DNA of 64,000 nt, from contig NZ_CP102798.1 in the NCBI RefSeq assembly GCF_028356935.1, positions 4,526,001-4,590,000 on the forward strand, read 5' to 3'. The notes under the pieces are model-generated. The model had not been told where the DNA came from. It saw only the letters and a program-made list of their open reading frames with translations, and made no database searches. This DNA is from Lysinibacillus sp. OF-1. Lineage in GTDB: Bacteria > Bacillota > Bacilli > Bacillales_A > Planococcaceae. Below, one piece after another: positions 7,124 through 21,979 of this stretch. Made by a program: the position numbers and the translations under genes. The first letter of the stretch is position 1. Every line of letters begins with the position of its first letter.

Positions 7124-8434
7124 TTATAGAAAGAATACACATGCCATCCAACCAAACAGGATCAAAGGGATATTAATAAAAACAAATGTCGGTACACAAG
7201 TATCCCAAATATGATGATGTTGTCCATCTACATTTAAGCCTGCTGTTGGTCCTAACGTAGAATCTGAAGCTGGAGAGCCTGCATCGCCTAAAGCACCTGC
7301 TGTACCAATTAAACAAAGAATCGCTAATGGACTCAATCCCAACCCTTGTGCAAGAGGAACAAATAACGTAGCAATAATAGGTACTGTAGCAAAAGATGAA
7401 CCAATACCCATCGTCACAACTAATCCAATGACTAGCATGATAAAGACAGCGAGACTTCTATTACCTTTCAGCACAGCGATTGAGCTTGTAATTAAGCTAT
7501 CCACATCCCCAGTAGCATTAATAACGGCTGCGAAGCCATTGGCCGCAATCATGACAAAGCCAATAAAGGCCATCATCTTCATCCCTTCAGAGAGAATGTC
7601 ATCTGCCTCTTTCCATTTAAGTGCACCTGTAAAATACATCAACATAATCCCTGTAAACGAACCGACAATCATTGAATCTGTTAATACTTGAGCACAAAGT
7701 GATGCGACTAATGCAAGAGCTGTAGAAAACATCACAAACTTACTGACGTTCACGTTTAAAGATTCCGTCTCTACTTCATTGTGCTTATAGTGTCTTGGCT
7801 TGCGGTATACAACAAAGGCGACAAGCAGCCCAATCAGCATTCCTAGCACCGGAATCGCCATTGCTACCGGTACATCACGTGAAGATACAGCCATTCCAGC
7901 CTCTGACACTTGTGTAGCAACGATATCTTGAAAAATGGCTCCGAAACCAGCTGGCACGAAACTATAAGTACCGATTAAGCCTACTGCAATTAGGACCGCA
8001 ATGATACGTCGATCAACCTCCAACATATTTAATATTTTTAAAATAGGAGGAATCAATAATGGAATGAAGGCAATATGAATAGGAATAACATTTTGAGATA
8101 AAATAGACATCACGAAAATAAGGAAAAAAATTAAAACCTTCACTAAGCCTTTTCTATTACTTTCGCCATTTAAAATTTTTAACATCCCTGCAATCATCAA
8201 TTTTGGTATTCCAGTTTTGGCAATAGCAATAGCAAAGCCACCAAGGAGACCATAACTCAATGCAATAGTGGCCCCTGCGCCTAACCCTTCTGTAAATGAT
8301 TGTACTGTTGCCTCAATGCCCATTCCACTTGTAAGACCACCTACAAAAGCTCCTAGTACTAAGGAAAGAACGACATTGATGCGAAGCAAGCTTAATATCA
8401 ACATAACGGCTACCGCCGCAATTACTGCATTCAT
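7124..8434 (-). CDS. Na+/H+ antiporter-family or amino acid transporter, YuiF/NhaC-like
   Basis: This 436-aa integral membrane protein has about 11-12 hydrophobic segments. It begins MNAVIAAVAVMLILSLLRI and has Gly-rich stretches (GLLGGFAIAIAKTGIP near 64-79; GTAGALGDAGSPASDSTLGPT near 380-400) typical of the NhaC / ion transporter superfamily. I recognise it as most like Bacillus YuiF, annotated variously as a Na+/H+ antiporter or amino acid transporter; the substrate cannot be read from sequence. It is the first of five accessory genes lying between tuf and rpsJ. Terminator-like hairpins flank it on both sides, so it is probably a single-gene unit. Confidence 0.75.
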   Translation of the reverse strand: MNAVIAAVAVMLILSLLRINVVLSLVLGAFVGGLTSGMGIEATVQSFTEGLGAGATIALSYGLLGGFAIAIAKTGIPKLMIAGMLKILNGESNRKGLVKVLIFFLIFVMSILSQNVIPIHIAFIPLLIPPILKILNMLEVDRRIIAVLIAVGLIGTYSFVPAGFGAIFQDIVATQVSEAGMAVSSRDVPVAMAIPVLGMLIGLLVAFVVYRKPRHYKHNEVETESLNVNVSKFVMFSTALALVASLCAQVLTDSMIVGSFTGIMLMYFTGALKWKEADDILSEGMKMMAFIGFVMIAANGFAAVINATGDVDSLITSSIAVLKGNRSLAVFIMLVIGLVVTMGIGSSFATVPIIATLFVPLAQGLGLSPLAILCLIGTAGALGDAGSPASDSTLGPTAGLNVDGQHHHIWDTCVPTFVFINIPLILFGWMACVFFL

Positions 8435-8537
8435 TGTTACACTTCACTTTCATACACTAAATTACTAACATGTTAAACTTTATTATTCTGATATTTGAAA
8501 GTCAATAGTTTTCACAATTTCAATATGTTTATATAAA

Positions 8538-8573
8538 AAAACAGTGTAAAGGATTAATCATTACACTGTTTTT
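8538..8573. terminator. Strong bidirectional-looking terminator after bceB
   Basis: A 12-base perfect stem (8538-8549 with 8561-8572) is flanked by an A-run on one side and a T-run on the other. On the minus strand it is followed by seven Ts, so it ends the bceAB transcript and insulates the transporter gene. Confidence 0.85.
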
Positions 8574-8594
8574 GAGTTTCTTCATATTTAATTG

Positions 8595-10574
8595 TTACAA
8601 CGATTCACGAACAACTTTTTTATAATAGCCAACCGAAAGTATGCCAAAGATCGTATATAACGCTACGTAACAGCACATCGCAATCCACAAGGGAGCCGTT
8701 AACTCTGTACCAAATAAGAACCATCCTGACTTAACAGCAAAGTAGCTATGCAATAATCCAATAACTAATGGGACACCAAAATTAAAGGCCTGTTTCATAT
8801 AAATGCCTTTCATGATGTCTTTCTCGGCAAAACCAATTTTTCTGAGTATTGTATAGGAACTTCTTTCTTCCTCTGCCTCAGACATTTGTTTAAAGTATAG
8901 AATACTACCAGTTGTCATTAGAAATGCTAATCCTAAAAATGCTGTTGTAAAAATCGTAAGACCTAATGTTTCAATATTATCTTTACGTTTTTCTTCAAAG
9001 GAAGATTGTGTATATTGCTGTGTCTTACCATCACCTTCTACAGCCGTAATAACTCCTGCATTTGTTTGAATATATAATTTCTCTGCTGTTTCTAATTCTT
9101 CTTTTGCTGTTATTGTAATGGTCGTTTGTTGATGCCAAGGATAAAGCGCTGCTTGCGTAGTTAAACTTGTAAACATGTCATCTGTCACAACAAAGATAGG
9201 TCCGCCACCTCCAGCCGTGACAATACCACTTATAACACTTTTATCATGAACATCTACTACATGGAAAGTTTCTTCAAGCTCTCCTGCAGATACCACTACA
9301 TCACGATCTTTTTCTAATGGAAACATTTCAGCCATATAACCGCCATAGTTGGTTAAGATAACATCGTTGCCTGATAGCGATGCTTCAGGAACGCTTTGCT
9401 GATAATCAGAAAGCGGGATAGTATAGATTGTTCCTTCCATATCATATAAAGGATTGTCCTGCTGCTTTTTAGACATTAATTGACCTACAGAGGCTGTTAC
9501 TCCTTGTAAACGATAATCTACTTTATCATACGTAATGTTATTTTTCTCTAACTCCTCTAAGAAGGTCTGACCCTGCTCTTCTAGCAATATGAAATCACCA
9601 GGTACTTGGCTATAAGCCGATGCCTCTGAGGAATAGTAGGCGATATAGGATAGCGTCGTTACACCTAGAGACACACCTGTTAATACAGTGATAAGTGTTA
9701 ATGACTTTGCGTTGCTCTTCATGCGATGCATAATCGGTGTTAATGCTAATACATCCTTGATAGATAAATGCCCTTTTTTCTTCAAGCGAATAGTATTCAT
9801 AATAAAGGCTACGGAGAAACGAAAGACAAGAAATGTACCACCAATAGTCGTAGCTAAAATTATCATCATATTGATAAATAAATGACCAGCTGAATCAATA
9901 TCAAATAGCTTTGTTGACGCATAGTAGCCGTAAGCAATCAGCACAAGACCCATAAAGCCAATTGCCATTTGTAATGCACTAAAACGTCTCACACGCTCGT
10001 CTGCTTGTTTTGCCGCGCTAAACAGTGATAATAATGAAACACGATGAATCATCCAAGCCATCTGTACAAGAACAATAACCAAAAGAATAGCAAACACGAT
10101 CATCGACTGCTGTAATGCCTGTGTACTAAATGTCATGGTTACAAGAGCTTCTTTTTCAAGGACACGTAGTAAAATCATAGCAAATACGCGTGAGCTAAAG
10201 AAACCTACCAGCATCCCTAGAATAACAGCACCAATAAATAAGAGAATGTTTTCAATCGCTAGTAAACGCACGATTAGCCCCTTTGTCATGCCTATCAATT
10301 GGTACAAGCCTATTTCCTTACTACGACGTTTCATAAATAAATGATTTGCATATAGGACGAAGAATAAAACGATAAAATAGAGAATATAAGTGGCTGCTTT
10401 AAATCCTGCCGTAGCCGTTCCACTCATTTGAACAGCATCCCATACCTCAGAATTATTTTGCAATGTAACAAAGGAAAAATACAAAGTAACACTAAAAATA
10501 AGAGCAAAGAAATATAGATAGTAGTGCTTCATATTTTTCTTCATGCTTCTAATCACTAGCTTACTAAGACTCAT
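8595..10574 (-). CDS. bceB: BceB-type ABC permease (antimicrobial peptide resistance)
   Basis: The 659-aa permease has the BceB layout: about ten membrane segments in two FtsX-like blocks (about 15-300 and 550-655) around a large extracellular domain (about 310-530) that in this family binds peptide antibiotics or their lipid II-cycle targets. With BceA it frees targets from drugs such as bacitracin and also passes flux information to the BceS kinase. The ATG at 10574 is preferred because AGGCGGTGA lies 7 bases before it; a GTG at 10583 is also in frame. It overlaps bceA by 11 bases. The drug specificity is not readable from sequence. Confidence 0.9.
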
Positions 10575-11325
10575 ACCCGTCACCGCCTAGCACACTTTGC
10601 GTATGCATGATTTCTTGGAAAAATGCCTGCCTTGTTTTATCACCCTTATAAAGTTCACTATAGATCAGGCCATCCTTTAAAAATAAAACACGTGTGCAGA
10701 AGCTTGCAGCTACTGCATCATGTGTAACCATCATTATTGTCGCTTCTTTCGTCTCATTAATGTTTTGGAGATTTTGGAGCAAGGCTGTAGCCGATTTAGA
10801 ATCCAATGCACCAGTAGGCTCATCTGCAAATACCAACGATGGGGTCGTAATAAGTGCACGTGCAGCAGAGGTACGCTGCTTTTGTCCACCAGATATTTCA
10901 TTGGGATATTTATTTAAAATTTCTGTAATACCCAATAGGGATGTTAGCTCTTTCACTCGGCTTTCCGCAACAGCTTTTGGTAACTTACTGATAGCTAATG
11001 GCAGAAGGATATTTTCCTTTACTGTGAGGGTATCCAGTAAATTATAATCTTGAAATATGAATCCTAGCTGCTCTCGTCGAAAATTCGCTAATGCCTTTTC
11101 TTTCATATCACGCAAATTATGACCGTTTATTTCAATTACACCTTCTGTTGCGAAATCTATAGAACACAAGACATTTAAAAGTGTTGTTTTACCTGAACCT
11201 GAAGGTCCCATAATGCCTACAAACTCACCTTTATTTACTTCTAAATCAATACCCTTTAGCACTTCTTGAGCCGTTGATTTTTTGCCATATACTTTCTTTA
11301 TTTTACGACCAATTAAAACTGTCAC
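10564..11325 (-). CDS. bceA: BceA-type ABC ATPase (antimicrobial peptide resistance)
   Basis: This is the ATPase partner of the BceB permease. The start is a GTG at 11325, preceded by AAAGGGG at 9 bases, giving 253 aa, the same as B. subtilis BceA; longer in-frame starts lack a ribosome site. Walker [10 protein letters not shown] is at 40-48, the signature ISGGQKQR at about 144-151, and Walker B with Asp168-Glu169. It belongs to the MacB/LolD-like subclass. A terminator and a possible BceR site lie upstream at 11398-11430, so bceAB is likely induced through BceRS. Confidence 0.93.
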
Positions 11326-11397
11326 GTGATAACGCCCCTTTCTATAATCCAAGTGTACCCTGTCATAGCTATTCATTCGTGCGTTTTACATGACAAT

Positions 11398-11430
11398 ATA
11401 AAAAGGTAGGTGACAATTTCGTCATCTACC
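11398..11430 (-). terminator. bceRS terminator with a BceR-like inverted repeat
   Basis: GGTAGATGAC and GTCACCTACC form a 10-base stem with one mismatch and a 6-base loop, followed by TTTTTAT. It contains the bceS stop codon. The inner part (TGACGAAATTGTCA) is also an inverted repeat resembling the BceR/PsdR motif TNACA-N4-TGTAA, and TATATT follows at -10-like spacing. It may therefore serve both as terminator and as the operator/promoter of bceAB. Confidence 0.65.
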
Positions 11431-12447
11431 TGTTAGTTTGACATATTCATTTTGTAAGGGAAAACGCAGTGTAAATAATGAGCCGTCTCCAACATTCGAT
11501 TGAACATAGATGCGAATCCCGATTTTTCGGGCTGCATTGGATGCCAAATAAAGACCCATTCCTGTAGATTGTGAGGATTCTCTTCCCGCTGTTCCCGTAT
11601 ACGATTTTTGAAAAATTCGAGGTAAATCCTCTAAAGGAATACCTATACCTACATCTTTTATATGTAATAATGTCGCACCTATTGGGTCATGTTCAGTAAA
11701 AATTGTGACCTCAGAATTTACTGGACTATATTTTATGGCATTTGAGAGAATTTGCCGAACAATAAACGCTAGCCACTTGCCATCAGTCAGAACCGTATCT
11801 GTAAGCTCAGCGACTTCAAAGCCAATACCTTTTTCAATACACCAAGCCTGCATACCCCTGATTTCTTTATAGACAATCGGTTTCAGCTCGACCTCATTTA
11901 AATAGTTGTCCTTTTCAATAGAGGCTAATCTTGTTTGATGTAGCTGTTGATCGACTAAAAGATGTAGTCTCAGCCATTCATTCTCTAATTTTCGGCGCAG
12001 TGATACATCCTCAATATGCTCTAACAATAAATTAATCGTTGTTAAAGGGGCCTTTACTTCATGAACCCAAGCCAACAGCTCATCTGAATACTCTTGTAGT
12101 TGCACTTTAGCTTGATTTAACTCCATGTTCTTCTCATAAAAGACACTTTCTATTTTTTGAAAGCATGCTTCCTGAAAAGGAGTTAAAACTAGTCTGTTTT
12201 TATGTGCTTCATCAAGGTAGCCGTCCATATTTCCCAGGAAATCTTTTAATTTCCCAACTTCATTGACATAACGCCACACAAAAAAGAGCGTAAAACTAAC
12301 AAGCAAACTAATGTTTACATACCATATTGAAATACTATTTAAACCAACATCTAAAGAAAATAGCACATTTAGAAGTGTAAAAATGAAAATAAAAAAACCA
12401 ATCCATGCAAAGCGTTCTCTTATAAATAATAATAGCATGTTTTTCAC
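11422..12447 (-). CDS. bceS: BceS-type intramembrane-sensing histidine kinase
   Basis: The 341-aa kinase has two membrane helices (about 13-31 and 41-58) with a very short outer loop, so it has no sensory domain of its own and must read the BceAB transporter. The DHp motif WVHEVKAPL contains the phospho-accepting His129. The catalytic domain has the N box (SNAIKYSP), G1 (DVGIGIP) and G2 (GMGLYLAS) motifs. It overlaps bceR by 4 bases. The cognate regulator is BceR and the likely target is bceAB just downstream. Confidence 0.92.
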   Translation of the reverse strand: MKNMLLLFIRERFAWIGFFIFIFTLLNVLFSLDVGLNSISIWYVNISLLVSFTLFFVWRYVNEVGKLKDFLGNMDGYLDEAHKNRLVLTPFQEACFQKIESVFYEKNMELNQAKVQLQEYSDELLAWVHEVKAPLTTINLLLEHIEDVSLRRKLENEWLRLHLLVDQQLHQTRLASIEKDNYLNEVELKPIVYKEIRGMQAWCIEKGIGFEVAELTDTVLTDGKWLAFIVRQILSNAIKYSPVNSEVTIFTEHDPIGATLLHIKDVGIGIPLEDLPRIFQKSYTGTAGRESSQSTGMGLYLASNAARKIGIRIYVQSNVGDGSLFTLRFPLQNEYVKLTGR

Positions 12448-13133
12448 GTCCTCTGGCTGACTGCCATATATCCAAGTCCTTTTTTAGTTAGAATCACTTC
12501 TGGTAAACCAATATCCTCTAGCTTTGTACGTAATCGATTAACATTTACCGACAATGTATTATCATTGACAAAACGTTCATCATCCCAAAGCTTTCTCATT
12601 AATTCGTCTCTTGAAACAATCTGATTAACCTGTTCCACTAAAATTCGTAAAATGAAGAGCTCGTTTTTCGTTAAGGAAGCAGTAGCCCCATTAAACACAA
12701 TCTCACTCCTTGTATAATCAATAACGGCATTATTAAAACGAGTAACGTCCATTTTCTCCTCAACATAGTCATAGGTTCTTCGTAAAATCGCCTGTGTTTT
12801 CGCGAGTAGCACTTCCATATGGAATGGCTTTTGTATAAAATCATCTGCTCCCATTTGCATAGCCATCACCATATCCATTGGATGATCTCGAGACGAGAGA
12901 AAAAGGATGGGTACTTTGGATAAATGACGTATTTCTCGACACCAATGAAAGCCATCATAGGCAGGTAATTGAATATCAATCAGCACAAGATGTGGTTTCT
13001 CCTCTATAAAATTGTCCATCACCTTTTGGAAATTTTTAGGACCAACCACTTGTAATGACCAATGTGCAAAACGTTCTTGAATCATGTTAAAAATGGATGG
13101 ATCATCTTCAATGAGCAAGATTTTCATGTCCAT
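12444..13133 (-). CDS. bceR: BceR-type OmpR-family response regulator
   Basis: The 229-aa protein has a receiver domain (acidic pair D10-D11, phospho-accepting Asp53 in LIDIQLP, conserved Lys in IQKPF) and a C-terminal winged helix (about 130-228). The start is the ATG at 13133, with AAAGGGG eight bases upstream; a second ATG at 13127 is possible. BceS would phosphorylate it, after which it would activate bceAB. A sigma-A promoter could not be placed with confidence in 13134-13230. Confidence 0.92.
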   Translation of the reverse strand: MDMKILLIEDDPSIFNMIQERFAHWSLQVVGPKNFQKVMDNFIEEKPHLVLIDIQLPAYDGFHWCREIRHLSKVPILFLSSRDHPMDMVMAMQMGADDFIQKPFHMEVLLAKTQAILRRTYDYVEEKMDVTRFNNAVIDYTRSEIVFNGATASLTKNELFILRILVEQVNQIVSRDELMRKLWDDERFVNDNTLSVNVNRLRTKLEDIGLPEVILTKKGLGYMAVSQRT

Positions 13134-13230
13134 GTTCAATTCCCCTTTTCTTTATTTCTCCTAGATGACATGCTAGCTGTTATGTATACATACACTAATT
13201 AAAATCATTTGATTTCCCTTATTTTAACAC

Positions 13231-13288: not shown

Positions 13289-14476
13289 TTATTTTTGGAT
13301 AGAAGCAACTACGCCAGCGCCTACAGTACGGCCACCCTCACGGATAGAGAATTTAGTACCTTCTTCAAGAGCGATTGGAGCGATAAGTTCAACTGTCATT
13401 TCGATGTTATCACCAGGCATTACCATTTCAACGCCTTCTGGTAAGTTACAGATACCTGTTACGTCAGTTGTACGGAAGTAGAACTGAGGACGGTAGTTAG
13501 AGAAGAATGGAGTATGACGGCCACCCTCTTCTTTTGATAAAACGTAAACTTCAGCTTTGAAGTTTGTGTGTGGAGTGATTGAACCTGGTTTAGCTAATAC
13601 TTGACCACGTTGGATTTCTTCACGAGCAACACCACGTAGTAAAGCACCGATGTTGTCACCAGCTTCAGCATAGTCTAATAATTTACGGAACATTTCTACA
13701 CCAGTTACAGTAGTAGATTTAGCTTCTTCAGCGATACCGATGATTTCAATTACGTCACCAACTTTAACTTGACCACGTTCAACACGGCCAGTTGCAACTG
13801 TACCACGACCAGTGATAGAGAATACGTCCTCTACTGGCATCATGAATGGTTTGTCAGTTTGACGTTCTGGAGTTGGGATGTAAGAATCTACAGCGTCCAT
13901 TAATTCAACGATTTTTTCTTCCCATTCTGGTTCACCTTCAAGAGCTTTAAGAGCAGAACCTTTGATTACAGGAATATCGTCACCTGGGAAGTCATATTCA
14001 GATAGTAGATCACGGATTTCCATTTCTACTAATTCTAATAATTCTTCGTCATCAACCATATCACATTTGTTCATGAATACTACTAAGTATGGAACACCTA
14101 CTTGACGAGATAAAAGGATGTGTTCACGAGTTTGTGGCATTGGGCCATCAGCAGCAGATACTACTAAGATACCGCCGTCCATTTGTGCAGCACCAGTGAT
14201 CATGTTTTTAACATAGTCAGCGTGTCCTGGGCAGTCAACGTGTGCATAGTGACGAGTTTCTGTTTCATATTCTACGTGAGAAGTGTTGATTGTGATACCA
14301 CGCTCTTTTTCTTCTGGAGCGTTATCGATGTCAGCGTATGATTTAGCTGTACCACCCATTTTTTTAGAAAGAACTGTAGCGATTGCAGCAGTTAAAGTAG
14401 TTTTACCATGGTCAACGTGTCCGATTGTACCAATGTTAGCATGCGTTTTAGAACGGTCAAATTTTTCTTTAGCCAT
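13289..14476 (-). CDS. tuf: Elongation factor Tu
   Basis: EF-Tu delivers aminoacyl-tRNA to the ribosome as a GTP complex. The 395-aa protein has G1 GHVDHGKT (about 18-25), DCPGHADY and NKCDMVDD, followed by two beta-barrel domains. The ATG at 14476 ([10 protein letters not shown]) has GAGGAGG 9 bases upstream; an earlier in-frame ATG lies over the ribosome site and is rejected. It is the last gene of the str operon, 118 bases after fusA. No second tuf copy is in this window. Confidence 0.98.
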
Positions 14477-14612
14477 TAGAGATTGCCTCCTCAAAATTAT
14501 ATGTTTTATTTTTGAAATTTATAGAATGAATGCCGATAGAGAACGGGCCCATCCCCTATCCTGCAATCATAGCTTACAAATTAGTTATACTTTATGCAAG
14601 ATGAAAATTCAA

Positions 14613-16691
14613 TTATTCACCTTTATTTTTTTTGATGATTTCAGCAGCAATTGATTTTGGTACTTCTTCATAATGATCGAATGTCATTGAGAATACACCA
14701 CGACCTTGTGTTGCAGAACGAAGTGTTGTTGCATAACCAAACATTTCTGCTAAAGGAACCATCGCACGAACAACTTGTGAGTTACCACGAGCATCCATAC
14801 CCTCAACGCGTCCGCGACGAGAAGTAATGTTACCCATGATATCGCCAAGGTATTCTTCTGGAATTACAACTTCTACTTTCATCATTGGTTCTAAGATAAC
14901 AGCGTCACATTGTTTCGAAGCTTCTTTAAGAGCCATAGATGCAGCAATTTTGAACGCCATCTCATTCGAGTCAACGTCATGGTAAGAACCGAATACTAAT
15001 TTCGCTTTAATGTCGATTAGAGGGTAACCAGCTACTACACCGCGGTCAAGAGAGTCACGAAGACCTGCTTCAACTGCAGGAATGTATTCACGAGGAATTA
15101 CACCACCAACGATAGCGTTTTCGAATTCAAATCCTTTACCTTCTTCATTTGGAGAGAACTCAATCGTTACGTCTCCGTATTGTCCACGACCACCAGATTG
15201 GCGAGTGAATTTACCTTGAACTTTTGCAGAGCTACGGAATGTTTCACGGTAAGATACCATTGGAGCACCTACGTTAGCTTCTACTTTAAATTCACGGCGC
15301 ATACGGTCAACTAAGATATCAAGGTGAAGTTCACCCATACCTGAGATGATTGTTTGTCCAGTTTCTGTGTCAGTATGAGCACGGAAAGTTGGATCCTCTT
15401 CTTGAAGTTTTTGTAAAGCTTGACCCATTTTATCTTGGTCAGCTTTTGATTTTGGTTCTACAGAAAGAGAAATTACTGGCTCAGGGAACTCCATTGATTC
15501 AAGAATAACTAGGTTCTTCTCGTCACAAAGAGTATCACCAGTAGTAGTGTCTTTAAGACCTACTGCTGCTGCGATGTCTCCAGCAAATACTTTTGAGATC
15601 TCTTCACGAGAGTTAGCGTGCATTTGTAGGATACGACCTACACGCTCACGTTTACCTTTAGAAGAGTTTTGCACGTATGAACCTGAATCTAATGTTCCAG
15701 AGTACACACGGAAGAAAGTTAATTTACCTACGAATGGGTCAGTCATAACTTTGAATGCAAGAGCTGAGAATGGCTCTGCATCAGAAGATTTACGTTCTAA
15801 CTCTTCGTCACCATCTACTGAAGTACCTTTGATTGCTGGTACATCAACTGGAGATGGTAAGTAATCGATAACGGCATTTAACATTGGACGTACGCCTTTG
15901 TGTTTGAATGCTGTACCACAGATTACTGGGTAGAATTCTACTGCGATTGTAGCACGACGGATCGCCGCTTTAAGTTCCGCAACAGTAATTTCTTCGCCTT
16001 CTAAATATTTTTCCATGATTTCTTCATCAACACTTGCAACAGCGTCGATTAGTTTTTCACGGTATTCTTCAGCTTGTGCGCGGTATTCTTCAGGAATTTC
16101 TCCTTCAGTTACTGCTGTACCTTTTTCGTCGCCATAGAAAGTAGCTTTCATCTCAACTAGGTCGATGATTGCTGAGAATTGATCTTCAGCTCCGATAGGT
16201 AATTGGATAGGGTGAGCGTTTGCTTGTAAACGATCATGTAGAGTTCCTACAGAATATAAGAAATCTGCTCCTGTTTTATCCATTTTGTTAATGAATACAA
16301 TACGTGGAACACCATAAGTTGTAGCTTGACGCCATACAGTTTCAGTTTGAGGCTCAACACCAGATTGAGCATCTAGTACTGTAACAGCACCGTCAAGTAC
16401 ACGTAATGAACGTTCTACTTCTACAGTGAAGTCTACGTGTCCAGGAGTATCGATGATGTTTACACGATGGCCTGCCCATTGGGCTGTTGTTGCAGCAGAA
16501 GTGATTGTAATACCACGCTCTTGCTCTTGCTCCATCCAGTCCATTTGAGAAGCGCCTTCATGAGTTTCACCGATTTTGTGAATCTTACCAGTGTAATAAA
16601 GGATACGCTCAGTTGTTGTTGTTTTACCAGCATCAATGTGAGCCATGATCCCAATATTACGAGTATTCTCAAGTGAGAATTCGCGTTTCAT
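14613..16691 (-). CDS. fusA: Elongation factor G
   Basis: EF-G catalyses translocation and, with RRF, ribosome recycling. The 692-aa length is normal. The G1 motif [13 protein letters not shown] is at about 17-29, followed by DTPGHVDFT and NKMDKTGAD. Domains II-V follow, including GGRGQYGDV in domain IV. No substitution typical of fusidic acid resistance was recognised by eye. A good ribosome site precedes the ATG at 16691. Confidence 0.98.
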
Positions 16692-16738
16692 AGGAAATTT
16701 CTCCTTCCATATTGGGGTAAAGACTGTATAAGAGACCT

Positions 16739-16762
16739 TGTGTTAGCTAACTGGCTAACACA
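16739..16762 (-). other. Perfect hairpin in the rpsG-fusA spacer
   Basis: TGTGTTAGC (16739-16747) and GCTAACACA (16754-16762) form a 9-base perfect stem with a 6-base loop. There is no U-tract, so it is unlikely to terminate. It lies just after the rpsG stop and may act in mRNA processing or translational control. Confidence 0.6.
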
Positions 16763-16771
16763 TAGGTTAAA

Positions 16772-17242
16772 TTACCAACGGTAGTGAGCGAATGCTTTGT
16801 TCGCTTCTGCCATTTTGTGCATGTCTTCACGTTTCTTAACTGATGCACCAGTGTTGTTAGAAGCATCAAGAATTTCGTTAGCTAAACGTTCTTCCATAGT
16901 TTTTTCACCACGAAGACGAGCATAGTTAACTAGGTAACGAAGACCTAAAGTTGTACGACGTTCTGGACGTACTTCAACCGGTACTTGGTAGTTTGAACCA
17001 CCAACACGGCGAGCACGAACTTCAAGAACTGGCATTACGTTGTTTAGAGCGGCTTCGAATACTTCAATTGGATTTTCACCAGAACGTTCTTTAACAAGTT
17101 CGAACGCACCGTATAAAATCTTTTGAGAAGTACCTCTTTTACCATCAACCATCATTTTATTGATTAAACGAGTTACTAGTTTTGAACTATAAATTGGATC
17201 TGGTAACACGTCACGTTTGGAAACAGGACCTTTACGAGGCAT
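16772..17242 (-). CDS. rpsG: 30S ribosomal protein S7
   Basis: S7 nucleates assembly of the 30S head. The ATG at 17242 ([16 protein letters not shown]) gives 156 aa, the family length; the frame is open to 17329 but those residues are not conserved. In E. coli S7 represses the str operon by binding the rpsL-rpsG spacer. A strong hairpin occupies the equivalent spacer here (17308-17342). Confidence 0.97.
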
Positions 17243-17307
17243 GTGTTTTCCTCCTTTCGAATAGTTATCGATTATTTTATAAAGTTGGCCTTTTCGTATT
17301 TGTCGAT

Positions 17308-17342
17308 CAAATATCAAATCTGCTAGCAAGATTCGATATTTG
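17308..17342 (-). other. Long hairpin in the rpsL-rpsG spacer (candidate S7 feedback site)
   Basis: Arms 17308-17321 and 17329-17342 pair over 14 positions, all Watson-Crick except one G-U, around a 7-base loop. It lies in the 149-base rpsL-rpsG spacer and has no U-tract. Position parallels the E. coli S7 target, but sequence similarity to that target was not established. Confidence 0.6.
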
Positions 17343-17391
17343 TGACAATTAGTATGAGGCTCAGTATTAAATAACGTTATTTAACGTTAAA

Positions 17392-17811
17392 TTATTTTTT
17401 TTCTTTAGGGCGTTTTGTTCCGTATTTAGAACGTGATTGTAAACGACCGTTTACACCAGCTGTATCAAGAGCTCCACGTACGATATGGTAACGAACACCC
17501 GCTAAGTCTTTTACGCGTCCGCCACGGATAAGAACAACACTGTGCTCTTGTAAGTTGTGGCCTTCACCTGGGATATAAGCTGTAACCTCAATTTGGTTAG
17601 TTAAACGTACACGAGCGTATTTACGTAACGCTGAGTTCGGTTTACGAGGTGTCATTGTACCAACACGAGTACAAACACCGCGTTTTTGTGGTGATTTAAC
17701 ATCAGTTAAAGATTTTTTAAATGAGTTATATCCTTTGTTTAACGCTGGTGATTTTGATTTCGTGATTTTAGATTGACGAGGCTTACGTACTAATTGGTTA
17801 ATTGTAGGCAT
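17392..17811 (-). CDS. rpsL: 30S ribosomal protein S12, with Arg at the streptomycin site
   Basis: S12 is the decoding-centre protein that controls accuracy. The 139-aa sequence matches the Bacillus form. The loop normally reading [11 protein letters not shown] reads [11 protein letters not shown] here: codon CGT at 17644-17646 gives Arg56, the position of Lys56 in B. subtilis and Lys42 in E. coli, where Lys-to-Arg changes are known to give streptomycin resistance. The second resistance site, in the [12 protein letters not shown] loop, keeps its Lys, although Pro is replaced by Ala after DL. It is the first gene of the str operon proper. Confidence 0.97.
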
Positions 17812-17909
17812 CGATATTTCCTCCCTTCATTTATTCCTTGTTAATACCACACATCCAGGTGGTTCATTTTTTGGGTAAAAACAAAGTCTTTGTGTTTAAT
17901 ACACAAAAA

Positions 17910-18158
17910 CTACTCTACAGTAATCGCAACTACCGCAGCTCCAACATGGATTCCACAGGCCTTGCCCAGTTCCTTTTTCGACTCAACAAGAATAACTGGT
18001 ATACCGATTTCTCTCGCGAAAGATATGGCCGAATCGGTTACCCAATTGTCTGCATCAAGTGCCACAAGAAGTTCTTTCACTGAACCGGCTCGCATTGCTT
18101 TTACTGCTTGCTTTGTACCTATGATTGTTTGACTAGCCCTTACTTTATCATAAGACAT
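17910..18158 (-). CDS. ybxF: L7Ae-family kink-turn RNA-binding protein YbxF
   Basis: This 82-aa protein of the L7Ae/L30e family binds kink-turn RNA; Bacillus YbxF associates with ribosomes. It has the [21 protein letters not shown] start and the [16 protein letters not shown] end typical of the family. The ATG at 18158 has GGAGG 8 bases upstream; an ATG two codons earlier is too close to it. It lies between the rpoC terminator and rpsL, as in B. subtilis. Confidence 0.92.
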
Positions 18159-18241
18159 TTTCATATCCTCCGAAGTACAGACAGTTAACTATCAACCTTC
18201 AATATATTATCATTACCAATTTACACTGTCAACTAATATCT

Positions 18242-18281
18242 TTAAAAAGTCCGAAGAGACGGTGAAATTCCATCTCTTCGG
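18242..18281 (-). terminator. Terminator after rpoC
   Basis: CCGAAGAGA (18251-18259) and TCTCTTCGG (18273-18281) form a 9-base perfect stem with ACTTTTTAAA following on the minus strand. It closes the rpoC transcript before ybxF. Confidence 0.9.
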
Positions 18282-18295
18282 TCCTATTTTAATGT

Positions 18296-21200
18296 CTATT
18301 CGGCAGAAACAACTTCTGTGTCAAGCTCATCTTTTTCGATGCGGATTTGACGGTAACGTTGCATACCAGTACCTGCTGGAACAAGTTTACCGATAATTAC
18401 GTTCTCTTTTAATCCAAGAAGCTCGTCACGTTTACCCTTAATTGCTGCATCTGTTAACACACGTGTTGTTTCTTGGAACGATGCTGCAGATAAGAATGAT
18501 TCTGTTTCAAGAGAAGCTTTTGTAATACCCAGGATAACAGGACGACAAGTTGCAGGATTTTTGCCATTCATAACAGCATCTGCATTTGCCTCTGCAAATT
18601 GGTGGATATCTAGTAATGAACCTGGTAATAAATCTGTATCTCCAGCTTCAATTACACGTACTTTACGAAGCATTTGGCGAACCATTACCTCGATATGTTT
18701 ATCACCAATTTCTACCCCTTGCATACGGTATACTTTTTGAACTTCTTTTAATAAATATTCTTGAACAGTTGAAACATCTTTGACTTTTAACAATTGTTTT
18801 GGATCGATAGAACCCTCTGTTAAAACTTGACCACGCTCTACATTATCACCTTCGATAACTTTTAAACGTGCATTATAAGGTGCTTGATACTTACGCGTTT
18901 CTACGTCACCTTGAATAGTAATTTCTTTTAAGCCTTCACGAATTTCTGTGATATCTGAAACAGTACCTGTGATTTCTGAAATAACAGATTGACCTTTTGG
19001 ATTACGTGCTTCAAAGATCTCTTGGATACGTGGAAGACCTTGTGTAATATCATCTCCGGCAACCCCACCTGTATGGAATGTACGCATTGTTAATTGTGTA
19101 CCTGGTTCACCGATTGATTGAGCTGCAATAATACCAACTGCCTCTCCAACCTCAACCTTTTCACCTGTTGCCAAGTTCATGCCGTAACATTTTTTACATA
19201 CGCCATGTTTTGTATTACATGTAAATGCTGAACGGATTGTCACTTCCTCGATACCTGCTTCAATAATTGCACGAGCAACATCTTGGTCGATTAAACCATC
19301 TCTTCCTAAAATAACTTCACCCGTTTCAGGATGTACGATTGTTTTCTTCGTATGACGACCAACAATACGTTCATCTAGAGCTTCAATCAGTTCTGTGCCT
19401 TCCATTAATGCACCAATTGTTAAGCCACGGTCAGTACCACAGTCATCTTCACGTACAATAACATCCTGTGCAACGTCAACAAGACGACGTGTTAAGTAAC
19501 CTGAATCGGCAGTTTTAAGGGCTGTATCGGCAAGACCTTTACGAGCACCGTGAGTAGAGATGAAGTACTCTAATACTGTTAAACCTTCACGGAATGAAGA
19601 TTTAATTGGAAGTTCAATAATACGACCAGCCGGGTTGGCCATCAGACCACGCATACCAGCTAACTGCGTAAAGTTAGATGCGTTACCACGGGCACCTGAA
19701 TCAGACATCATGAAAATTGGGTTTGTTTTCTCAAGTGACTTCATCAGTTTCGCTTGAATTTCGTCTTTCGCAGCACTCCAGCTTGAGATAACACGATCAT
19801 AACGTTCATCCTCTGTAATGAAACCACGACGGAATTGCGCTTGAACTTTATCCACTTTTTCTTGAGCTACAGCTAAAATTTCACCTTTATCAGGTAATAC
19901 CACGATGTCAGATACACCTACAGTAATACCAGCACGTGTTGAATATTTAAATCCTAGGTTTTTCATGCGGTCAAGCATTTTAGATGTTTCAGTAATGTGG
20001 AAACGTTTAAACACTTCAGCAATGATATTTCCTAAGAATTTTTTACGGAATGGATTTACAACTGGTACTGATGCAAAATATTTACGCAATACAGCTGTAC
20101 GTTGTGCATCAATTTTCCCTTTTTCATCTAAATTATTATAAGCGCTATCTGATTCAAGCTCTTTCAGAGTATCTTCGTCAATTACTAAATTAGCGAAGTA
20201 TTTCTCTGGTGTTACTTGCTCTAAGTTGAAATCAGTTGGCTCATTAATATAAGGGAATGATTTTGGCAAGATTTCGTTAAAGATTACTTTACCAACAGTT
20301 GTCAATAGGAACATATTATTTTGTTCTTCTGTGAATGTTGGGTTATTTAACGAACTTGCTTTAATCGCGATACGTGTATGCAAATGTACATGACCTGTAT
20401 CATATGCAATTAAGACTTCATTTGGACCATAGAAAACAGTACCTTCACCACGAGCATCTTCACGTTCAAGTGTTAGGTAGTAGTTTCCTAATACCATATC
20501 TTGAGAAGGTGTTACAACAGGTTTACCATCTTTTGGATTCAAGATGTTTTGTGCTGCAAGCATTAGAAGACGAGCTTCTGCTTGAGCTTCTGCTGATAAC
20601 GGTACGTGAACCGCCATTTGGTCACCATCGAAGTCAGCGTTATACGCTGTACATACTAATGGGTGAAGACGAATAGCACGACCTTCAACTAGTGTTGGTT
20701 CAAATGCTTGAATACCAAGACGGTGAAGCGTTGGTGCACGGTTTAGTAATACCGGATGCTCACGAATAACATCTTCTAAAACGTCCCAAACGTCATTGTT
20801 TAAACGTTCAATTTTACGCTTAGCAGATTTAATGTTATGAGCAAGACCACGCTCTACTAACTCTTTCATTACGAATGGCTTGAATAATTCGATAGCCATT
20901 TCTTTTGGTAAACCACATTGGTACATTTTTAAGTTTGGACCTACTACGATAACGGAACGACCAGAATAGTCAACACGTTTACCAAGTAAGTTTTGACGGA
21001 AACGACCTTGTTTACCTTTCAGCATATGTGAAAGTGATTTTAGTGGACGGTTACCAGGACCTGTTACAGGACGTCCGCGACGACCATTATCAATTAATGC
21101 GTCAACAGCTTCTTGTAGCATACGCTTTTCGTTTTGTACGATGATGCTTGGCGCACCTAAATCTAATAAACGTTTTAAACGATTATTACGGTTGATTACA

Positions 21201-21979
21201 CGACGGTATAAATCGTTTAAATCGGAAGTTGCAAAACGACCACCATCTAATTGCACCATTGGACGAAGCTCTGGTGGAATAACAGGTAGAACATCTAGAA
21301 TCATCCATTCAGGTGAGTTACCTGAGTTACGGAAAGATTCAACAACTTCTAGACGTTTGATAGCACGAGTACGTCTTTGACCTTGTGCAGATTTTAACTC
21401 TTCTTTTAAAGAATGTGTTTCATCCTCTAAGTCAATTTTGCTTAATAGTTTTTTGATTGCTTCTGCACCCATTGCAGCTTCGAATGTGTTGCCGAATTTT
21501 TCACGGTATGCACGGTACTCTTTTTCAGAAAGTAATTGTTTGCTTTCTAAATTAGTAGCACCCGCATCAATCACAACATATGAAGCAAAATAAATAACTT
21601 CTTCTAATGCACGTGGTGACATATCTAGGATTAGACCCATACGGCTTGGAATACCTTTGAAGTACCAGATATGAGAAACTGGTGCTGCTAATTCGATGTG
21701 TCCCATACGTTCACGACGAACTTTAGCGCGTGTTACTTCAACGCCACAACGGTCACAAACTACGCCTTTATAGCGTACACGTTTATATTTACCACAATGA
21801 CATTCCCAATCTTTAGTTGGACCAAAGATACGTTCACAGAATAAACCATCTTTTTCTGGTTTTAATGTACGGTAGTTAATTGTTTCAGGCTTTTTAACCT
21901 CACCATATGACCAAGAACGAATCTTGTCAGGGGATGCTAAACCGATTTTCATATATTCAAATTCATTAACGTCTATCAA
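18296..21979 (-). CDS. rpoC: DNA-directed RNA polymerase subunit beta'
   Basis: Beta' carries the catalytic metal site of RNA polymerase. The NADFDGD motif with its three aspartates is intact, as is the N-terminal zinc site (CHCGKYK and CDRCGVEV, about 60-80). The 1227-aa length is slightly above B. subtilis (about 1199), and it ends with a short acidic tail ([11 protein letters not shown]). It follows rpoB after an unusually long 203-base gap that contains a terminator-like hairpin. Confidence 0.98.

Follow-up and report, generated by a model that had tools for sequence, protein, structure and literature searches.

In Lysinibacillus sp. OF-1, ribosomal protein S12 combines an arginine at residue 56 with an alanine at residue 104, and its gene lies on a fusA-rpsG-rpsL tract that appears to have entered by homologous replacement, a bounded tract in conflict with both its flanking genes and unlinked genes. 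We consider it probable that Arg56/Ala104 is a target-type streptomycin-resistance allele, that it entered horizontally on this tract, and that ANT(6)-type enzymes, then dispensable, decayed. For the wider scenario, i.e. a resistance allele that would have spread across genera and then among Lysinibacillus species, become part of the native ribosome and displaced ANT(6), with two coupled residues that must change together, we put the chances at about even.

The window, i.e. the whole stretch of 64,000 nucleotides analysed here, encodes, among others, an antiporter protein of 436 aa with 99 % identity to one named from L. fusiformis, in keeping with a Lysinibacillus. Its features relevant to the tract are the following:

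13289..14494, minus strand: tuf (EF-Tu), left flank, highly similar across 20 compared genomes.
14613..16691, minus strand: fusA (EF-G), in which 34 residues separate the Arg and Lys types.
14650..17900 (limits approximate), no strand assigned: foreign tract fusA-rpsG-rpsL of about 3.3 kb, delimited by informative sites, identity and gene trees.
16772..17242, minus strand: rpsG (ribosomal protein S7), with zero residues separating the Arg and Lys types.
17392..17811, minus strand: rpsL (ribosomal protein S12), 139 amino acids over 139 codons, from the reading frame and its translation.
17500..17502, minus strand: rpsL codon 104, GCG for Ala, at the position of E. coli Pro90, which is the other of the two classic streptomycin sites.
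17644..17646, minus strand: rpsL codon 56, read as CGT (Arg), equivalent to E. coli Lys42.
17910..18164, minus strand: L7Ae-type ribosomal protein gene, right end of the tract, with the breakpoint there or adjoining.
18296..21979, minus strand: rpoC, right flank, which does not share the Arg-type grouping.

A sequence-only reading of the window had reported a CGT codon for Arg56 in rpsL and had assigned it to the streptomycin site, and both points were borne out. Lys42 of E. coli S12 lies at the streptomycin site of the decoding centre; a genome search returned a single S12 gene, and this gene has Arg at the Lys42 equivalent, as resistance alleles of the K42R class do. The equivalent K42R change is a resistance change in Klebsiella, where it gave a streptomycin MIC above 1,024 µg/ml at a relative fitness of 0.97, i.e. 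a small cost (PMC4182516). By analogy, Arg56 would weaken streptomycin binding and leave decoding near-normal, thereby conferring resistance with little loss.

Arg56 was also present in a second genome of the window's species (G007) and in 24 of the 31 Lysinibacillus genomes readable at codon 56 (genus set of 32 genomes; one, 86 % complete, gave no match), and is therefore no sequencing error. The other seven readable genomes encode Lys56 by AAA, from which CGT differs at three bases. The 24 Arg-type members differ consistently from the 7 Lys-type ones at six S12 residues (13, 20, 56, 104, 124 and 129). Beyond the genus, Arg56 is uncommon: in an even sample of 398 genomes across the phylum, the pattern search gave it in 13, the genome under study among them.

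Residue 104 of the same S12, which the sequence-only reading had overlooked, lies in the motif VKDLAGVRY, as against VKDLPGVRY in Lys-type relatives. The comparison of S12 across Lysinibacillus and its relatives, which had been proposed in that reading, split the genus: 24 of the 31 readable genomes were Arg56/Ala104, 7 were Lys56/Pro104 and none was mixed; G027 and G029 are Arg56/Ala104. The same association was found at the family level (261 genomes, 253 of them readable at codon 56 by pattern, the eight without a match being G005, G060, G077, G147, G148, G214, G222 and G247), with Arg56 in 49 genomes and Ala104 in 48, all within those 49. The 49th, G059 (L139), has Ser104; its S12 also carries Gly81 (YIGGEG versus YIPGEG), and it is the only family Arg56 genome without Ala104. 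The phylum sample gave 13 Arg56 genomes: six of the same class (the genome under study included), all Ala104, and seven of other classes, all Pro104. It thereby contributed five further Arg56/Ala104 genomes from another family of the same class, bringing the Bacilli genomes with Arg56 to 54, of which 53 have Ala and one has Ser at residue 104. Ala104 without Arg56 was seen in no genome searched. Among 119 S12 proteins parsed out of 120 listed, three were Arg56/Pro104, two Lys56/Ala104 and one Asn56/Pro104, the first five exceptions all being on short contigs. Given these five and the occurrence of Arg56/Pro104 outside Bacilli, the coupling is not absolute.

A scan of 80 named loci (L095 unread; no Lysinibacillus among those kept) showed Arg56/Ala104 in Saccharibacillus sacchari, S. 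endophyticus and Bacillus sp. FJAT-28004. Genomes grouping with Paenibacillus, i.e. L171-L175 (G635, G326, G594, G478 and G282), L061, L062 and L065, are likewise Arg56/Ala104 and are interspersed on the tree with Lys56/Pro104 relatives, G635 being outside the tree.

On an rpsL tree of 93 rows inferred without codons 56 and 104, each site changed six times and the changes coincided, four of them being forced by well supported branches. The coupling test on this tree had four pairs (p = 0.125), a number at which 0.05 is out of reach. An early count of eight coupled pairs on a RpoB+RpoC+FusA tree (p = 0.008) was set aside, because that tree contains fusA, which moves together with rpsL, and because transferred alleles are no independent mutations. 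As Ala104 was absent from Lys56 backgrounds in the examined genomes, it may be tolerated chiefly where Arg56 is present. The change from Pro104 to Ala (or Ser) would be a partner change that accompanies Arg56 in the examined Bacilli genomes, and Ala104 may relieve the small cost of Arg56 or deepen resistance.

The borders of the tract were delineated by informative sites, on which the genome under study sides either with six distant Arg56 genomes or with three near Lys56 relatives. Between 14,700 and 17,899, 287 sites sided with the distant Arg56 genomes versus 10 with the near Lys56 relatives. The balance was 3 versus 45 at 18,200-19,499 and 22 versus 153 further right, to 27,499; on the left, at 14,400-14,699, it was 2 versus 125, in partly gappy intergenic sequence. 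This switch at both ends places the tract between the vicinity of the fusA 3' end and a point just upstream of rpsL. As zero informative sites were found at 17,900-18,199, the right breakpoint lies at or beside the L7Ae-type gene.

Pairwise identities followed the same pattern. To the near Lys56 genomes (G002, G003 and G010) versus eight distant Arg56 genomes, the genome under study was 87 % versus 95-97 % identical in fusA and 93-94 % versus 98-99 % in rpsL; in rpoC the values were 94-95 % versus 89-91 %. In tuf, the near Lys56 relatives were slightly closer than the distant Arg56 ones. We also observed that less than half of the rpsG-rpsL spacer (17243-17391) could be aligned between the genome under study and Lys-type genomes, though rpsG itself has no type-exclusive residue.

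Gene trees were built with the Arg-type genomes of the genus together with 12 of the 21 Arg-type genomes found outside it (genera g3, g6, g8 and g16). In the rpsL tree, the 24 Arg-type members of the genus and these 12 genomes formed one clade (support 100/100, whether or not codons 56 and 104 were included), and the same 24 + 12 genomes formed one clade in the fusA tree (100), the genus' 7 Lys-type genomes being placed elsewhere. fusA rejected Lysinibacillus as one clade (AU p = 0.0005). The rpoC tree recovered the genus as one clade (100) and rejected the Arg lineage as one (p = 7e-43). A tree of an unlinked locus, covering 29 of the 32 genus genomes (G005, G012 and G016 were left out for a weak, partial or missing match), did not group Arg56 as one clade (four changes, AU p = 1.6e-8); it placed Lys56 G002 and G003 as sister to Arg56 G009, and Lys56 G013 as sister to Arg56 G021. 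Against replacement, the joint RpoB+RpoC+FusA tree united the Arg56 genomes of the genus in one clade. We attribute this to fusA, because rpoC alone needs five changes and the unlinked locus four. A single mutation inherited within the genus was thus ruled out by the unlinked-locus tree, the informative sites and the fusA and rpoC trees.

The source of the allele would have been a bacterium related to several other genera of the family, or else an unsampled donor close to them; it would have arrived on the segment of about 3.3 kb and would have spread among Lysinibacillus species through homologous replacement. For the fusA gene of the genome under study, identity was 88-89 % with the four Arg-type genomes from outside the genus that were compared, versus 87 % with the Lys-type members of its own genus, a small raw margin, although the tree is well supported. 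As the former value is only 88-89 %, the donor would be unsampled or the entry old. Spread of the tract after the species had split is suggested by the Arg-type pair G021-G000, more alike in fusA (0.956) than in rpoC (0.895), the reverse holding for the Lys-type pair G010-G013 (0.899 and 0.921, respectively).

The sequence-only reading stated that strains of the B. sphaericus group are naturally streptomycin-resistant and that streptomycin is used in selective media for them, and had explained this by a single inherited Lys56Arg point change that makes the whole group resistant. Its site was right, Arg56 is present and K42R, its equivalent, is known to confer resistance; but the trait cannot be genus-wide with 7 of 31 genomes at Lys56, the Arg allele lies on a foreign tract and is polyphyletic on the unlinked tree, and Ala104 accompanies Arg56 in 24 of 24 Arg56 genus genomes. 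What remains is a two-site allele on an imported segment instead of a lone point change. The inheritance and extent of the single-change version being already contradicted, we give it almost no chance of being correct. Our literature search found no streptomycin MIC linked to any of these genotypes, a point against the favoured explanation; the one Lysinibacillus value it gave, 32 mg/L and marked resistant, is for an isolate of unspecified rpsL type (PMC7022595).

As the tract spans nearly all of fusA, selection may have acted there. The tract would then have spread through resistance to an EF-G inhibitor or through better translocation, rpsL having hitchhiked. EF-G changed far more than S12 (34 versus 6 type-exclusive residues, and none in S7), hence fusA may be the selected gene. 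However, zero of the 34 EF-G residues fell on the nine fusidic-acid sites looked at (these sites and their wild-type residues being those we assume for EF-G), and the loss of ANT(6)-type genes points towards streptomycin. In genus g11, moreover, the rpsL tree joined the Arg56/Ala104 genomes G071 (L311) and G076 (L315) and the fusA tree separated them, a weak hint of a transfer of rpsL without fusA. We therefore rank selection on fusA below selection by streptomycin, and regard it as rather unlikely.

Under the streptomycin explanation, an imported resistant target would have rendered the ANT(6)-type adenylyltransferase dispensable, the allele preceding the decay, and Lys56/Pro104 species would have retained one such enzyme. 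The distribution of these genes was surveyed with PF04439 (ANT(6)/AadK). Full-length genes without internal stops were found in all 7 Lys56 genomes of the genus (341.8-383.8 bits) and a full-length match in 1 of the 24 Arg56 genomes (G001, 376 bits), the other Arg56 genomes having fragments, weak matches or none (Fisher p = 3e-6 for 7/7 versus 1/24, uncorrected for kinship). Lys56 G002, G003 and G010 possess a whole ANT(6)-type gene flanked by an aminotransferase-like gene on one side and an ATPase gene on the other; of this gene only broken pieces, some with internal stops, persist at the same locus in the genome under study, G007 and G009, all Arg56. Another ANT(6)-type gene is whole in Lys56 G013 and split in two frames in its Arg56 sister G021, at a locus 91 % identical over 3.2 kb; this split could be a sequencing error. 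At least two Arg56 lineages, among them the window's species, thus have a broken copy at the locus where Lys56 relatives have the whole gene.

The intact gene of G001 (L191) speaks against the favoured explanation, as in this Arg56 genome the ANT(6)-type gene is still full-length, though located elsewhere; its DNA is 73 % identical to that of G010. Four unrelated loci, i.e. those of G002/G003/G010, of G011/G025, of G013 and of G016, harbour the ANT(6)-type genes found in Lys56 genomes (L188-L195), a pattern that would fit repeated gain of the enzyme.

The loss of these genes might instead be ordinary turnover of accessory genes, with Arg56/Ala104 serving to tune decoding or translocation and having no connection to streptomycin. 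Two results lend this some credit. Across the 261 family genomes, 38 had PF04439 matches over 300 bits, of which 36 were among 204 non-Arg genomes (two of the 36 containing a stop), one among 49 Arg genomes and one in a genome with S12 unread, so that non-Arg genomes, too, mostly have no full-length gene. The independent-pair test, run on the genus set and hence not on genomes selected for enzyme presence, was not significant: with four independent species pairs from the unlinked tree, Arg56 and an intact gene were opposite in 4/4 pairs in 189 of 200 pairings and in 3/4 in the remaining 11, the best p being 0.125. Against this stand the enzyme homologue in 7/7 Lys56 genus members, found at four different loci, the same-locus breakage in at least two Arg56 lineages, and the fact that both changed residues are classic streptomycin sites (PMC4182516). 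We consider this alternative unlikely.

Whether the Lys56 genes adenylylate streptomycin is uncertain, since four of the five scored (out of seven) fell below the NCBIfam NF033084 cut-off for ANT(6) of 420 bits (260.9-400.8 bits), G025 alone exceeding it (474.3 bits); the G001 gene was also below (249.5 bits). The Lys56 genes match PF04439 over nearly the whole of the profile, and that of G010 matches the ANT(6)-Ib structure 8vxb and the aminoglycoside 6-adenylyltransferase 2pbe. The difference from ANT(6)/AadK proper lies in this equivalog cut-off, under which most are best described as ANT(6)-like only.

A modifying enzyme might instead account for streptomycin resistance of the window's species, if present, an alternative that the sequence-only reading had named as capable of overturning its claim. 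It holds some ground in that an ANT(6)-type remnant is kept in the genome and that the search covered ANT(6) and APH(6), which leaves AadA-type and APH(3'')-type enzymes as candidates. Nevertheless, the remnant is interrupted by stop codons and can be recognised in pieces only, and APH(6) has no match in this genome; no APH(6) above cut-off was found in the genus, which gave two sub-threshold matches (G001 and G024). With ANT(6) broken and APH(6) absent, these two enzymes do not explain resistance away in the genome under study, and we judge an enzymatic cause very improbable.

The common view is that each lineage acquires ribosomal-target resistance through mutations of its own, and that EF-G and the ribosomal proteins are passed on vertically. 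In the present case, one short segment carrying S12 and EF-G seems to have been exchanged between lineages, and apparently took the place of resistance by enzyme. A parallel in mode is found in the mosaic target genes penA and pbp2x, in which a chromosomal drug target is replaced through homologous recombination with DNA of related species; the genes concerned here encode ribosomal proteins and EF-G, and the drug pressure would be that of streptomycin. Laboratory and clinical rpsL mutants (K42R, K43R or K56R) show the same Lys-to-Arg change at the same residue (PMC4182516), but the allele described here is native to many species, encoded by CGT, paired with Ala or Ser at 104 among the examined Bacilli and, in the genus, carried by a recombined tract. 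Similarly, the S12 changes P90L, P90Q and P90R affect the residue equivalent to Pro104 and cause streptomycin dependence (PMC4182516), whereas Ala or Ser at this position occurs on Arg56 in every genome found, and drug-free growth is presumed.

That a native S12 substitution may cause natural streptomycin resistance is already known from the wild-type Arg87 S12 of Sphingomonadaceae and Erythrobacteraceae, proposed as the cause of their resistance (PMC4741004). There too a native S12 residue is offered for the resistance of whole taxa, but the residue is another one, and the available text of that paper describes no partner site, rpsL transfer or enzyme decay. The paired change at 104, the horizontal spread of fusA-rpsG-rpsL and the enzyme decay look new: our literature search, with most subscription journals outside its coverage, found no description of such an S12 (Arg56/Ala104) for Lysinibacillus, of its transfer or of enzyme replacement. 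If the proposed history holds, a ribosome of resistance type can spread horizontally and persist for long as the native state, enzymatic resistance can be exchanged naturally for target-based resistance, and residue 104 would be a partner that may offset or extend the Lys-to-Arg change. It would also call for caution in using fusA or rpsL as phylogenetic markers in the family, and would allow the classic streptomycin sites to be tested for their cost and partner effects by means of alleles kept in nature.

Finally, the usual str / S10 gene order is interrupted in the window by genes at 7124-13139, between tuf and the rpsJ-led ribosomal operon. These are a NhaC-type antiporter gene together with putative genes for a permease, an ABC ATPase, a histidine kinase and a response regulator, and the latter four look like a Bce-type peptide-antibiotic module.
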